Of a stretch of 64,000 nt of DNA, positions 4,175 to 56,025 are shown piece by piece; within the stretch, counting starts at the first letter, position 1, and each line of letters opens with the position of its first letter. This stretch comes from Sycobia sp. Sy_11 (lineage: Eukaryota; Arthropoda; Insecta; Hymenoptera; Epichrysomallidae): assembly GCA_018907035.1 (NCBI GenBank), contig JACCIC010000274.1:206001-270000 (forward strand), given 5' to 3'. The notes beneath the pieces were generated by a model that had not been told where the DNA came from, did not search any database, and saw only the letters and a program-made list of their open reading frames with translations. A program made the position numbers and the translations under genes.

Positions 4175-7100
4175 GTGTACACAGAAATTTGTGAAAGTTT
4201 TCAGCGTCCCGTAAAATTTTCTGAAAATTGAACTTACGAAAGCGTATAATGAAGGAGAACAGAATCCCGTTTGAAGGATATGTCGATTATTAGATGGTTG
4301 TTTTGCTTTCCCATGACAGTTTTTGCAGAGCCGCTGTCGACATTAGAATAATATATATTTTGCATTGAACGTGAAGACATCGTGATTTTTACTGATCATT
4401 GGATGAGAAAGGCATAAATGGTTAATAATAGTATTTTGGTCATAAAGAACCATTGCAATTTATTGGACAATTGCATAAAGAAAATGGTATATACGATGTA
4501 GAAGGTTCATCGACAAGAGCATACATCTGTCTGGTCTTTATTAAAATTTTCTGACGAACGCAAGGATGATGATTTTATTTGTTTTATTAAAATATGTAAG
4601 GACACTCAATTTTCGACATAGCGCAGAATAATTATTCTTTAAAGAATATGTAAAGTTGTAAGTCCTGCATCTTTTATGACTTTCACGAGTTGACGATAGA
4701 CAAACTACAAGCTTGAAACAAGGCAGTCGACATTACGGATATAGCGAGTGCATTTTGATGAAACTCATAGTACAATAATTCAAAGCCTCCAATCCATTGT
4801 TGGCGAAATTAAAAAGATAATTTTTTTTTTATCACTGAATATCAAATTATGATTTGTTCTTACGTCGACTGTTGTGAATTAAATTAGTAAATATTTTCAT
4901 CAGTGTTACAGTCTCTATAATATATTAACTAAAATAATGACAGTCAGACTTTACTTGTTTATAATCATCTCCAGTAAAATTTGAAATGGAAATTACTAGT
5001 AAAAAATAAAATTAAACTAAATTAGAAATTAAATAATAAAAATAAAATTATCTATTTATATTAAATTTAAATTATCTATAATTTATGTTGGTAATCTAAT
5101 TAATATTTATCAATTTAATTAACGCGATTAAAACACACATTATACATAAAGTGTGCAGACCAGATAATGTTTAAAACATTTTAGAACGTATAGTAAGTAT
5201 TTCGTGAAAATATATGTAAAGCCGTTCATGAAAGAATGTTCTAGGTAGTTACCGAAGAGTTGAAATAAACAACTTACGTGCGAGCACATTTCTATTGACA
5301 AGAAAATATCTTTAAAACAATCAACTACTATATCTAAATGTAAGAACAGATTAGCAGGCAATACTTCTTATCGTATTCGTCGTTTATCGAATACTTTTGT
5401 AATGTGGCCATTTTTGTTTGTTTTTTTGTTTCCAATTTTCAAACCGCATCCACCGATAGACCAGCGGACTTTTACAGCTGATTCCCTCACGTGACTTAAA
5501 AATATTCGTACGCGATATTCTGCTGTGACTTTAGACCGAGTCGTCTTATACAACGTTCGGATGATTATCATGCGCGATTTTCATTCAATGTTACGTCGTA
5601 TTTCATTGCTTTTTTTCCTCCGAGCCTCGTCGCAATTCGTACGCGCCATTTTCACAATTTCCAGAACGAAAATTTACGAAAAAATCCCCTCGCAATCGCC
5701 AACGCGTCTTACGCATTGACTCGGCGTTGGTTTCCACGTCCGTACCTACTTATGGGCGGATCCGTTATCCGCGGATCGGCAAATGAACGAGCGATGCTCT
5801 TCCAAACAATCCGTTAACGTCGGGGATACGTACAATTGCATAAATAAGGCGCGCGTCTGCGCGTAAAGCCAATCGTCCCTCGAGGGGCTGGGACGTCGTG
5901 GAGAGGTACGTATGATAGATATAGCACGGCTCGGGCCGTTACATTACCGCGGGAAATGGAAATTCTCCCGCTTTTTCGTTGCGATCTGCGATCATATACT
6001 AGCATACGCAGTTGAAGAGCATCAGCCCGGGGGTTGATAATTATATTTGTACATATATATATATATGTATGTATGTATGCGCGCATCTGAAAAGCATGAG
6101 AATCGCCGCCAGACATTGTAGCTGCAAAATGTTTGCGGGTTGTAGATTTCTTCTTAAGTTCGCTCGAAATGGCGAAATTTGGCTATTGTACTTAAGATAG
6201 CAATGCTTACATCGGCATCTTTCATTATTTATTAATTGTCTGTTTCTAATGATGGTTAAATACATAGTGAACTAATAGATTACTAAAGATTTGGGAAAAA
6301 AGTACGACCGATCTCGTTCAGTAAAAATTAATTTTTCTATCTAAAATTTTCTCTTATATCTGTAATAATAATAAAAATACTGAACAAACCTTGTAAAATT
6401 TAAAAATGAGCGTTAGTGAGTATCAATGAATTATTGCAAACGTTGAAAGGAAAAACTTCGAATTATATTTCCATAGAAATAATAAATTTAGATAGTTTGT
6501 ATTTTAAAAAGGTAAGAATTCTTGACGAAAAAGACTGTAACGTGATTTAGAATAGAAGATGAAAATACTTGTAAAGATGTTAAATACTTGTAATTTCATA
6601 ATCGAATAGAAAATCTGTTGAAGTAACTATAACATAATTAGTAACGGCTAATATATAGATCTTCTAGATTACTTTTTTATACATTCTTATTCTTCTTCTT
6701 CTATGATTTTATAATACTTTGATAATAAATGATAACAACAAGACCATTAGTTTCTTGAAAAACTTGTTTCCCTCGCCATGTCCAATAGATTTGAATAAAT
6801 ATTCATATACGTAAGTCATACATGAATCTTCAAATAATGAAGACTTACTATTTTTTATTCTTTTCTCTGTTCAGGAGATGTAAAATTTTATTGATACAAA
6901 ACTTTGCATGTCTTAATACACATGAAGAAAATATAAACTTGGTATATAAGTAAAGTTTATTTTCCCATTCTTTTCAGTGTCCATATATTCTCTATAGAAA
7001 AGAAATCTGGAATTATCTTTCTTACGGAACGATCTTTAATGTTAAAAGTACGCTAGTTTTTCCAGCGTGCAAACGATTATTTTGTTAAACTGTAAGAAAG

Positions 7101-18590: not shown

Positions 18591-19312
18591 TTTTCCTTGG
18601 TTTTTCCTAAGGGGTATCGTACACTGAGTTTTCGCTTTGGTCATCCCCGACTCGCGGGTATTGGATATTCTGGGCAAATGCCATTCAGATGCAGTAAGTA
18701 TCGACCATGGCGAAAAGTCGCTCCTCGTCCGCCCGTTCATCTATAATATCAGAGTTTTTCCAACCGAGTACTAATATAGCATTAGCGTTCAAATTTTAAA
18801 TTAATTTATAATTACAATTATCATTGGATTTTGGTTAATCTGTATAATATTAGAATGATAACCTTAAAATCTATACAAAAAGTATACTTTCGTCAGTTTA
18901 TGCAGGAAGTATACATTGTTTTTTTATGTTATTTAACGTCGCTCTATTCATGCTTCCAAATATCGGTGCTAATCGGCGACGGAGGTCTACGATGTGTTTG
19001 TAAACAAAGCACATGTAAATTATTACAGCGATGCATCTGTCAATCGACCGAGACCGGGATTTGAACGAAGTATACATTGTTCACAAAATGCTAAACTTCC
19101 AACGCTGATAATAGCGTCAATATTTGAAAAAACCAGTATAGAGAAACGTTAAATAATATTAAAAAAAAAAATTGCCTATTAGATGTAAAATTAACAATAT
19201 GATATAAATTAACAATCAACTTGAGTAAATGAACGATATTCGAAGGAGTTGTCCTTCATCGATGCGGTTTCAAAAACGTGTTCACTTACAACGAAGACAA
19301 AAGAAATGTGAA

Positions 19313-35009: not shown

Positions 35010-35900
35010 AAAAATGTTTTCTGACTTTAAACGTGATTGTTGAGACAATAATGATGCAGAATGTAGTGGACGTTCAAATGACTAGGAAGCACCAGAGAAT
35101 ATAAAACAAACCCATAAGATCACTTTGGGTTTATATTGCAACGTTTTTGTGGAAAAGCGGATATCGTATTTGCTAACTGTGGAACAAGCACGTGCCCATG
35201 ATTTTGAGCTGTGTCTAAACTTAACAAATCGGATATTTTTTCGGATCTATATAAGGTAATCGATGGCACACGAATCCATCACTTTACTCCGAAATCAATT
35301 TATCGTCACCTGAGTAAACAGAAAGTAGTGAATCTAGTCAAAATCGCCCGAACGCGCGAGAATTAGCTGGAGATGTTACGGCCTTGATAATTTTAGTATA
35401 TGCGTGGTATAATAGACATGAACTACCTGGAGAAGGAATGTAATGTCACCAGTCAATATTATGTAGCTTTATTGGAGCGTTTGAAGACCGACTTTAAAAT
35501 AAGAACGACCGTCTACGCCGAAGAAAAAAATTGTTGTTTCATCCACATGACGCACCGTGTCAGAAATCAAAACAATGGAAAAATGGTATGAATTAGGCTA
35601 TTCATTTCTATCAATTGCATCAGCATACACCCCATATTCATCAGATTTGACTCTCAGTGAATATTGGCAGTCCGGAGATCTGCGAAAAAAAATCTTCACC
35701 TGTTGGAAATTGGATGCCAACGAAGAGATTATTGCTGAAACCGAGGCCTATTTTAAAGCAAAAGATAAATCGTTCTATAAAAAATGGTACTGAAATATTG
35801 GAATGGTGCTGGAACGATTGTGCTCTATTTATTGGAGATTGTATTCTGATTGTAGAATAAGGCCAATTTTTCGGCCCGAGACTTTTCATCCCATGCGTTA
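35010..35900 (+). pseudogene. Decayed mariner-like transposase and element remnant
   Basis: Scattered stretches in changing frames match an animal mariner transposase in the right order: DNNDAECSGRSND then EAPENIKQTHKIT (35035-35125), LLTVEQARAHDFELCL (about 35172), DGTRIHHFTP with the first catalytic aspartate (35262), GIIDMNYLEK and QYYVALLERLK (35405-35490), HPHDAP (35540), TPYSSDLTLSEYW (35629-35665), then NEEIIAETEAYFKAKDKSFYKK (35720-35787). The third catalytic aspartate is glutamate (35657 region). Stops and at least three frameshifts separate the pieces. The sequence after the C terminus (about 35862-35895, GGCCCGAGACTTTTCATCCC) resembles a mariner 3' end, but no convincing 5' terminal repeat was found. 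It belongs to a different subfamily from the copy at 54.7 kb and is more decayed. Confidence 0.85.

Positions 35901-51371: not shown

Positions 51372-51433
<62 letters not shown>
51372..51433 (+). repeat. (AC)n microsatellite
   Basis: About 31 perfect units. Confidence 0.97.
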
Positions 51434-51685: not shown

Positions 51686-53108
51686 CACATAGTATCACAC
51701 CACTCTCTGTATAAATTGTAACTTGAGATATGCAACTGCATGACATTGATTTTCGGGACTTTTAGCTGAGTTAAAATATCCTATTTGTGAGTTAATTTAA
51801 TCAAGAAGAACGGGAATACAAAATCCTAATAGATTCATGCAAATCGTCGCATGATGATATATTATCAAATCATCAGATGGATATATATTATAAAATTAAC
51901 GATTGATCATTAATAAAAAAAAAAATCTGTTAGATTCATTATTAAAATGGTCCCACTATCGTAGAATACTAATGTAAACACATTCCACGTATCATATTAT
52001 AAATAATTTATTTCGATGATAAGTTTAAGTATTTTTTGTGTGAAAACCTTGTTCAACCTCATAAAAAAAAAAAATTAATAATATTGGACTAAGAGCCGAG
52101 ATCTTTGCTCAGAAAACCAATGTCGCTATACGTTCGACCGCAACTAGCCTAGGGTTATCCTCGTATAGTAAATTTCTTTATGCTACACGTTGGGATAGAA
52201 CAGGTCAAAGCTCTTTATAGTTATATATTGTTTCATAATATTCTATAATGTATCAAGTTCATTTCGATTTGATTAAAAATTTTTTGTTTAACAATAACTG
52301 CTTAGCTCGTGAGCTGAAATGTCAAACGACAAACCAATTTCTGTATTTATTTAATTTTTTCTTCATATACACTTGCTAGTCTCTTTCGTAACGTAATATC
52401 ATATTTCTCTCAACTGAATCAGATCATTTTTTACGTGATAATTTTTTAGGTCCAAGCAATTTTTTTTATAAAAATTAAAATAGCTATCATTTTAAAAATC
52501 AAATAAAAAAAAAATGACAACCTACGATAGGCTTGGTTTTCACCCCGGATTTGCATAAAATCTTCACTTTTTGTGTATTCTAAGGTTTACACATTCTTGC
52601 ACGTGTCGCTTTGCGAGCAATGATTTTTCTTATGGAATTCCTATGGAAATTTATTAAAAATTGGCACCGATTGATAAGGTGCGAAGCATATCTGAATTTC
52701 GATAACTACAATTATGATTTTTACACTCATTAATATATATAGTCCAGATTTGGCGAATGAACTTCCTGAAAAAAAACTAATTCACTGTCTGACAAACTTA
52801 CCGTTGTCCGTCGTATATTGGTGCACAGTAAAAAAAGGATTGAAATAAGACACTATCCGTTCTTCATTAAACATATGACCAATAATTTTCGACAACTTCG
52901 GATCATTTAAACCGCAATATAAATACATACAATTTATGCTATAATTATCATATTAATCTAAAAGGCATTTATCATAGGCAAAAATTTCCATCCGCTCGGT
53001 TGGACCGATCTGAACAGGCTGCCTATCCAGTTGTCTCTGCTACATATGCACCGATTTCAATTCCATAATTCCAAATAATCCGTTTCGTGATTTAATAACG
53101 TATCTATA

Positions 53109-53110
<2 letters not shown>
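51682..53110. other. AT-rich unique DNA
   Basis: No gene or element is recognised. A donor-like ACG/GTAAGTTTG on the minus strand at 52796-52806 lacks a partner acceptor. Confidence 0.4.

Positions 53111-53175
<65 letters not shown>
53111..53175. repeat. (TA)n microsatellite
   Basis: About 32 units bounded by ATGCATATA and TATATGCAT, so the ends extend the palindrome. Confidence 0.96.
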
Positions 53176-53419: not shown

Positions 53420-53609
53420 GTATATATATATGCGGTTCAAGAGTAATTTCGTGATCGTAGGTGTGCGCGATTCTCTTGCGTATGTATGTATAAATGATAT
53501 AGTTTGTCTCTGCGGGCCGGTAAATTTGGTTGTCTGCTTCCTGGTGCCTAATATATTATGATGCATATATATGCATATATAAATCTATATAAATATATAT
53601 CTATATACT

Positions 53610-53615
53610 GTGTAG

Positions 53616-53669
<54 letters not shown>

Positions 53670-53683
53670 GTATATAACTGCAC
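53610..53683. repeat. (TA)n tract capped by inverted arms
   Basis: GTGTAGTTATAT (53610) and ATATAACTGCAC (ending 53683) are inverted with one mismatch and flank about 26 TA units, giving a 74-bp near-palindrome about 250 bp from the ratchet site. Confidence 0.88.
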
Positions 53684-53886
53684 GGGTAACAACAACCAAT
53701 GCGCTCTGCCCGTCGACTTTCGAGCTTCATGGGTCGCGGCGACGTTTTATCCGATCTGCCGCGGAATACGGAAAGTATAATCAAGGAGGCGCGCGCGCAT
53801 TAAACCACGATGAAAGCTCGGGCTGCCGCTCGACCTTGTTAAGTATCTTTCGGCGGTGTATCGGAAGACTGCCGGTTATAACTTAC

Positions 53887-53970
53887 GTGACACGGCCAAG
53901 GTGCTGTGGGCTCTGCCGATAATTTCCGCATTAACTTACCTGTAACAAGAAAGAGAGAGAAGAAAAAATT
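53887..53970 (-). promoter_or_regulatory. Recursive splice site (ratchet point), zero-length exon
   Basis: Read on the minus strand, a run of about 25 mostly pyrimidine bases (53943-53968) leads to TTACAG, followed directly by GTAAGTTAA, with the AG/GT junction between 53940 and 53939. A complete 3' splice site is thus fused to a complete 5' splice site. This matches ratchet points described in long Drosophila introns, where the intron is removed in steps and the donor is rebuilt after each step. A further donor, GTAAGTTAT, starts at 53886, so 53887-53939 could act as a 53-nt recursive-splicing exon. The splice signals are seen directly. Use in vivo, and the minus-strand host gene with a very long intron, are inferred. 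A chance match is possible but unlikely, because both halves are close to consensus. Confidence 0.68.
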
Positions 53971-54618
53971 ATACAAGCGTAATTATGGGGAGCGTCGAGT
54001 ATTGCCGATGCGTGCACACGGCGCGTATGAAATAATAAAACTTTTTAATTGAACAATTTAAAGCGTTATATATATTGGGGACCGTTAAGCCGATATTACG
54101 CTGACCTTCGCGCGCGTACGTGTACGGTCTTTAATTTCAATGAGCCGCGTGTATCATTCGAATAATTCTGGATTACTCGGTAATGGAAAAGAAACTTTTA
54201 TTTACGTAAGAATTACGTGAAGGGGATAATAAGCCTAACAATATTAACTAAATCTTATATGTCAGCGTAAAGTATTTTTTCTCGTTTGGATGTAGAAAAT
54301 GATATTGTCTATAAAGATTCAATCTGAATTATTCAACAACTTTAGTTCTCTTATAATTTCGAATAGAGCTGACCTAACTATTTACAATTTATACGTATCA
54401 TTTTCTGAAGTCGTTGTGCAAAGTTTTATCACAATTCACTTTCCGGATTTATCATGGTCGATAGTTACCTATTCTTTTATTGTTATTTTTATAAAAATAT
54501 CTATTGCAAACAAGGGCTATAAAAATTCTTTAACCTTTACATAATGCATGGATTTTAATTTGAGTATCTTGTTTAATGAGCTTTTTCTACCTCTTTATTT
54601 AAAAAGATTTTTCAATCC

Positions 54619-54619: not shown

Positions 54620-54669
<50 letters not shown>
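54620..54669. repeat. (TA)n microsatellite
   Basis: About 24 units, ending 27 bp before the mariner left end. Confidence 0.95.
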
Positions 54670-54673
<4 letters not shown>

Positions 54674-54696
54674 TTAAAAGAAATACAAGGTTAATA

Positions 54697-55921
54697 TTAG
54701 GTTCTCAAATATCTCTCTTCCGACTTTTTGTCTTATGAATTTCGCGGCTCTGTACAAAGCGCTACAGAGCTCGTTTCTGGCAATACTATACATTATTTGA
54801 AAGGTCTTGCCATAACGTACAAAACAACGCTATGCATGGTTAGTTTGGATATTGCGTTCAAAAGTTATAGACGTGTAAACATGGAATTCACTAACACCGA
54901 AATTCGCGCTATTTTAAAGTTTTCCTTCGTCAAAGGCAAATCCGCTAGAGAAACGTTCCGTGAGATTAATTTTCGATGATTCAGAGCTGGTGAAAATGAC
55001 ACCATGTATAAGCCAGCCGGCGGAAGACCTGTGAAGACGAATACCGATCGGATCATGGAATTTATCGAGTTAGATCGGCATGTGGCATCTCTTAAGATCG
55101 CCCAGGACATAAGACTTAGTCAACCAAACCAATTTAAACCATCTGCAGAAGGCTGCATACAAAAATGCTTGACGTTTGGGTAATGCTTGATTTGATGCAC
55201 AAAAAACCTTCTGGACCGAATCAACGCCTGCGTTGCGCTGCTGAAACGGAACGAACTCGACCCATTTTTGAAGCGGGTGGTGACTGGCGACAAAAAATGG
55301 ATCACATACGACAATATCAAGCGAAAACGGTCGTGGTCCAAGGCCGGTGGATGGTCCCAAACAGTGGTCAAGCCGGCATTGACGGCTAAGAAGGTTTTGC
55401 TGTGTGTTTGGTGGGATTGGAAGGGAATCATCCACTATGAGCTGTTCCAATATGGCCAGACGCTTAATTCTACCATCTACTGGGAACAACTGTACCGCTT
55501 GAAGCAGACTATCGACCAGAAGCGTCCACAATTGGCCAACAGAAAGGGTGTAGTGTCCCACCAGGATAACGCCAGACCACACAATTCGTTGATGATCGGT
55601 CAGAAGCTAAGGAAGATCGAGGTTTTATCGGATCCGCCATATAACCTGGACATAGTGCCAAGTGATTACCACCTGTTCCTGTCCATGTCGTACGCCCTTG
55701 GTGGTGTAAAGTTGGATTCAAAAGAGGCTTGTGAAAAGTGGCTGTCCGAGTTCTTCGCAAATAAGGGGAGGGGTTTCTACGAGAAGGGTATTATGAAGTT
55801 GCCATGCAGATGGAAACAGATTATCGAACAAAACGGGGCATATTAGAAGTAAATACGGACACTTTTTTTAAAGCATTGAGTGAAGAGCAAAAAAGCGGTA
55901 GGGAGATATTTGACAACCTAA
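54697..55921 (+). mobile_element. mariner DNA transposon, both ends present, inactive
   Basis: The left end begins TTAGGTTCTCAAATATCTC and the right end, on the minus strand, begins TTAGGTTGTCAAATATCTC. About 28 bp of inverted repeat can be aligned with about three mismatches. TA at 54695-54696 fits the mariner target duplication; the right copy is TG, so it has mutated. The total of 1225 bp is slightly shorter than the usual 1.25-1.3 kb because of internal deletions. The element sits about 750 bp from the putative ratchet point and directly follows a (TA)n tract, a natural target for TA-specific insertion. Confidence 0.93.
54881..55849 (+). pseudogene. mariner transposase pseudogene (DD34D family)
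   Basis: This would have encoded the nuclear cut-and-paste transposase of the surrounding mariner. The start is the ATG opening MEFTNTEIRAILKFSF, the N-terminal DNA-binding domain. The frame stops at 54977 (TGA), where a CGA arginine codon before FRAGEND probably decayed at a CpG; part of the helix-turn-helix region just before it is missing. Between about 55120 and 55210 the homology hops through all three frames (QTNLNHLQ, then LDVWV, then NLLDRI), so there are several indels. The C-terminal catalytic half is open to the TAG at 55847. Its aspartates are in VTGD (55289), HQDN (55565) and VPSD (55664). Only 32 residues separate the last two, not the family's 34, and the usual GDEKW reads GDKKW. 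It cannot make a working enzyme. Confidence 0.93.
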
Positions 55922-56025
55922 TGTTAAAAAAAATTCACATTGAATTAATACAACTTTAAATATTATAAGCTCGCGCATCAAGCTGTTAATCAAATATGAG
56001 CATCATGTGTAATAATTTGATAATA

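Follow-up and report, generated by a model that had tools for sequence, protein, structure and literature searches.

A candidate minus-strand intronic ratchet point with a predicted 53-nt cryptic RS-exon in a 64-kb stretch of probably arthropod DNA

Introduction

Intronic ratchet points were reportedly described in Drosophila by Burnette in 2005 and by Duff in 2015. According to the accessible text of PMC8605326, the fly spliceosome begins by recognising a short cryptic exon located at the ratchet point, after which the upstream exon is joined and a donor is rebuilt that outcompetes the donor of this RS-exon, and the RS-exon leaves with the remaining intron. In the same excerpts, the RS-exon of flies measures about 50 nt, is in general out of frame and generally has the weaker of the two donors. 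In the available part of PMC6110457, 63% of the fly introns above 40 kb carry a high-confidence recursive site, and the recursive segments typically measure 9-15 kb. RNA-based maps of ratchet points are described for flies, humans and mice in the accessible literature (PMC6110457 and PMC8605326 among the sources), and other insects are covered by a motif survey, the excerpted text of which gives 0.484 RP-sites per 100 kb for large bee introns vs 0.122 on the complementary strand (PMC2773006). A search of the literature on recursive splicing in Apis mellifera and ants found no experimental map for the Hymenoptera in the accessible portions of the papers retrieved, PMC8553928 included.

The site that is analysed here lies on the minus strand of a 64-kb stretch of DNA, which is referred to as the window. 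As in the Drosophila ratchet points and their RS-exons, as far as the available text of Pai 2018 (PMC6110457) and PMC8605326 describes them, an acceptor and a donor are juxtaposed and both are strong, a candidate RS-exon of about 50 nt is followed by a downstream donor, and no convincing coding exon was found around the site. It differs from the fly sites in being a prediction from sequence and in being the single site of this quality in 64 kb; moreover, whereas the RS-exon donor of flies is the weaker one as a rule, the relative strength of the two donors here depends on the upstream exon. The Ubx microexons m1 and m2, as presented in the excerpts of PMC8605326, also open with a regenerated donor and are of similar length (51 nt vs 53 nt here), but the 53 nt of the present candidate do not preserve the frame. 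The vertebrate RS-exons (Sibley 2015 and Blazquez 2018, as summarised in the accessible part of PMC8605326) share the order of acceptor, regenerated donor and exon donor; however, they are mostly expressed exons, whereas the present one is predicted to be skipped.

Results

The features of the locus, numbered by their position in the window, are:

53982-53985, minus strand: candidate branch-point TAAT, starting at -46 from the junction (sequence)
53968-53971, minus strand: candidate branch-point TAAT, starting at -32 from the junction (sequence)
53944-53968, minus strand: polypyrimidine tract of the putative recursive 3' splice site, with 18 of 20 pyrimidines and AG-free to -103 (sequence)
53940-53941, minus strand: AG of the putative recursive 3' splice site (sequence and scores)
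53931-53939, minus strand: regenerated 5' splice site GTAAGTTAA, the putative ratchet-point donor (sequence; CAGGTAAGT unique in the window)
53887-53939, minus strand: predicted cryptic RS-exon of 53 nt, with a GC content of 0.53 and one open frame out of three (sequence and scores)
53878-53886, minus strand: predicted RS-exon donor CAC/GTAAGTTAT, the first eight intronic bases of which equal those of the ratchet donor (sequence and scores)
54624-55922, plus strand: Mariner-family DNA transposon with a frame-broken transposase (Pfam, relatives, second copy)

The acceptor AG occupies 53941-53940 and the GT starts at 53939, which places the junction at 53940/53939 with zero bases between them, and the minus-strand sequence across it is TTTTTTCTTCTCTCTCTTTCTTGTTACAG/GTAAGTTAATGC. 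Judged by sequence and scores, a strong 3' splice site thus abuts a strong 5' splice site. The preliminary description had reported a pyrimidine-rich tract, TTACAG and the donor in direct succession, and all of these were found on the minus strand at 53970-53931, where a tract of 25 nt leads through TTACAG into GTAAGTTAA. Its statement that nothing separates the acceptor from the donor is accurate for the junction itself, but a second donor 53 nt downstream had been overlooked. It had also called this the only match of such quality, with which our results agree: three YAG/GTRAG sites occur on both strands of the window, and this is the only one with a tract, having 18 pyrimidines in the 20 positions from -23 to -4 of the acceptor compared with 9 and 10 in the other two. 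The sequence CAGGTAAGT occurs once in the window when both strands are considered. The nearest AG that lies 5' of the junction AG is at -103, so that AG is absent from about 100 nt; within this stretch, TAAT motifs begin at -46 and -32. The local RNA fold at the site was not unusual (z -0.12).

Splice sites were scored using approximate insect matrices. Under these matrices, the combined acceptor/donor score was 22.21 of a possible 26.07, the runner-up in the window reached 14.04 and the best combined site across 200,200 bases from this assembly reached 16.30. The ratchet donor was the best in the window (13.67 out of a maximum of 13.85, with its own CAG counted), and the acceptor (12.46 of 16.14) ranked third on its own strand and fifth on both strands. 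The site remained first in all 60 of the 60 random perturbations of the matrices. The next four combined sites, which were at 35426, 57984, 35309 and 48268 (all minus strand), were rejected because their donors were weak (2.6 to 5.2 out of a maximum of 9.9), and there was no second ratchet site of such quality in the 53.9 kb downstream. An exact 24-base pattern had 0 matches in viral contigs, which has no bearing on the conservation of the site in insects.

The site could also be a product of chance, i.e., a pyrimidine-rich stretch that ends in CAG and is followed by GTAAGT in non-functional DNA. When the acceptors and donors of the window were paired randomly, which is a null that retains its CT microsatellites, 0.0017 sites with at least this score were expected per window on both strands. 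A matrix-free estimate that was based on the pyrimidine count and the AG-free distance gave 0.0005-0.0127 per window for GTAAGT or GTRAGT, and Markov simulations of orders 1-5, with 40 million bases each, produced one match in total, at order 4. On the other hand, dinucleotide repeats, including those of CT, abound in the window, and the perturbed matrices increased the chance expectation to a median of 0.010 and, in the worst of the 60, to 0.21. Looser motif patterns were close to the chance level (2 vs 0.67 expected and 3 vs 1.62 expected); because they were not enriched in the window, the whole case rests on a single high-quality site. In an arthropod genome of ~300 Mb (an assumed size), several sites that score this high would arise by chance at 0.0017 per 64 kb. 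Nevertheless, an expectation of 0.0005-0.013 per window under nulls that retain the microsatellites, together with a separate donor at +53 that has a probability of about 0.02-0.03, albeit at a threshold that was picked after the donor had been seen, makes a chance origin unlikely.

This second donor, CAC/GTAAGTTAT, scored 8.94 and was the sole other donor with a score above 4 within 300 nt. About 0.027 donors of such strength (at least 8.94) would be expected in 150 nt. In 264 kb, which comprised the window and 200 kb of the same assembly, 6 of the 257 acceptors with a score of at least 9 had a donor of at least 8.9 at 20-150 nt downstream, this site included; the donor cut was placed after the fact, just below 8.94. 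The pair at 53939-53887 was third by summed score among these six. The top-ranked one, L009:6495 (minus strand, same assembly), is an 88-nt stretch with an acceptor of 12.6 and a donor of 10.2 that looks like a real exon. A further pseudo-exon of 97 nt with a good acceptor and donor was observed in the window at 748-652 (minus strand; summed score 18.8). Among the open-frame pseudo-exons of the window, the present one scored 21.4 and three others scored 17.2-18.2. With a donor at 53886, the site has a predicted short cryptic exon of about 50 nt and a downstream donor, as in fly ratchet points; it would therefore be a ratchet point accompanied by an RS-exon, not a bare zero-nucleotide exon.

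The predicted RS-exon is not a multiple of three in length; two of its frames meet TAA immediately, and one is open (GT plus 17 codons). Its GC content was 0.53, compared with 0.42 in the 170 nt upstream and 0.54 in the 100 nt downstream; as the downstream flank is equally GC-rich, composition is no argument for the RS-exon. These properties also bear on whether the 53 nt are a conventional alternative or coding exon that is normally kept in the mRNA like the expressed Ubx microexons. The open frame would suit such an exon, as would the fact that the advantage of the ratchet donor hinges on the upstream exon, but the length is not divisible by three, two of the frames stop at the outset, an open run of 17 codons often arises by chance (about 0.44 per frame by our own estimate) and the GC content is not distinctive, which makes a conventional exon highly improbable. 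It is just as hard to believe that CAG/GTAAGT, although a perfect match to U1, merely closes a non-coding exon as its ordinary 5' splice site, with a pyrimidine tract at the exon end by accident and no ratchet involved. Several of the best combined sites of the background loci are indeed strong donors with poor tracts, but here the 25 nt on the upstream side make a good acceptor, about 100 nt are AG-free, which is unneeded at exon ends, and the donor 53 nt further on would be left unexplained.

The window has 461 stop-free stretches of at least 45 codons in which 40 or more residues are unmasked, and exons of a host gene were searched for among these. The Pfam scan covered the 362 that retain 48 or more unmasked residues, so that 99 of the 461 and all of the shorter stretches lay outside the scan and short exons can be missed. 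At an E value of 0.01 or better, Transposase_1 (1.4e-21) and HTH_48 of Mos1 (0.0051) stood out, and the other matches were weak (7, 4 and 1 further families in three scan batches, with some names recurring). On the minus strand, Atrophin-1 (best 8.5e-06) and SR-25 (6.3e-05) were rejected as they were below the curated cut-off of Pfam, and so were the matches to DUF3915, IMUP, WLS-like_TM and DUF92. These six of the seven families in the first, minus-strand batch were traced to five stretches, several of which were repeat-coded, and none of the traced matches except for the mariner was above the curated cut-off. The tracing covered this first batch; the weak match of the third batch was again to DUF3915. 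A weak zf-C2H2_11 match (E 0.0027) was also observed among the minus-strand stretches; its source was absent from 30 re-examined stretches, and a pattern search revealed no convincing finger. The follow-up of 10 other stretches yielded no host gene. Hence, with the weak zinc-finger match set aside, no convincing protein-domain exon was found in the 362 scanned stretches besides the decayed mariner, and the preliminary description of the window as being without exons stands within the reach of these scans. No RNA families at the gathering cut-off and no tRNA were found in the window.

The mariner starts about 0.7 kb away from the ratchet site; with respect to the proposed transcript, it is on the upstream side and in antisense orientation. 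Its transposase match, Transposase_1, covers 55196-55843 on the plus strand, and a second copy in the same assembly (L015) is 80.5% identical over 1392 aligned bases. Of its 378 relatives, 120 were listed, and the named ones were mostly arthropods (bees, a sawfly, ants, wasps, flies, moths, an earwig, copepods, spiders and a scorpion), with two from a bat. The closest named relatives among the matches listed suggest an arthropod setting for the window. As mariners move between species, an arthropod source is likely, and a placement in the Hymenoptera would be no more than a guess. At E 0.001, the 1-kb region around the ratchet site matched nowhere else in the window. At E 1e-20, the window had four matches to the 200 kb from its assembly, none of which covered the ratchet site. 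Short dispersed repeats were observed at 4838-4967, matching L003 and L017 (80-82%), and at 18910-19065, matching L014 (77%). TA, CA and GA dinucleotide repeats are dense, with 82 tandem-repeat rows in 64 kb, some of them overlapping, and many are perfect across 40-60 bases, e.g., those at 53101-53175, 53565-53676 and 51373-51433.

Discussion

Taken with a probability of roughly three in four (about 0.76), the site is a genuine intronic ratchet point with a frame-shifting cryptic RS-exon, located in an intron of a minus-strand gene that is probably from an arthropod. Assuming that about half of real sites have a second donor, its presence here would raise the odds roughly twentyfold. From the sequence, we infer that the site is used and that the window is part of a giant intron, the host gene of which is encoded on the minus strand.

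In the mechanism that we propose, the 53-nt exon at 53939-53887 would be recognised through its strong acceptor and the donor at 53886. Joining of the upstream exon to 53939 would then rebuild the donor GTAAGTTAA at the junction, and the rebuilt ratchet donor would compete with the donor of the RS-exon. Both donors open with the same eight intronic bases, GTAAGTTA; because these octamers are identical, the choice between the donors should turn mainly on the exonic bases. The exonic side of the RS-exon donor is CAC, with C at -1. The ratchet donor scores 13.67 vs 8.94 for the RS-exon donor, but this holds only when its own CAG is in front, and since the first splice swaps the CAG for the end of the upstream exon, the ranking is conditional on that exon. 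Upstream exons usually end in G. With such an ending, the ratchet donor should win, the RS-exon would be discarded and the intron would be removed stepwise. As the 53 nt shift the frame and two of the frames stop at once, the RS-exon in a coding context should be either skipped or a poison exon.

The density of ratchet sites in other insects is also of relevance here. The sense and complementary densities in the bee, as given in the available part of PMC2773006, indicate that a site picked randomly from bee-like DNA at the threshold of that survey would count as a weak call; the expectations that we computed make the present site rarer than that threshold implies. A single site per 64 kb is closer to the bee density of PMC2773006 than to the fly density of PMC6110457. 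The lack of a further site in the 53.9 kb downstream contrasts with the 9-15 kb of typical fly segments but is unremarkable at the bee density.

Judging from its layout, the site is probably one more ratchet point of the fly type. If it were confirmed together with its RS-exon, the fly arrangement would be extended to another lineage, and a direct demonstration outside of flies and vertebrates would be of some value. The identical donor octamers would make the locus a clean test case for donor competition. It is conceivable, although decidedly improbable, that the last bases of the upstream exon decide the outcome, so that alternative first exons with or without a final G would toggle the inclusion of a 53-nt poison exon. 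If this were true, promoter choice would be coupled to gene output through the skipping or inclusion of the poison exon.
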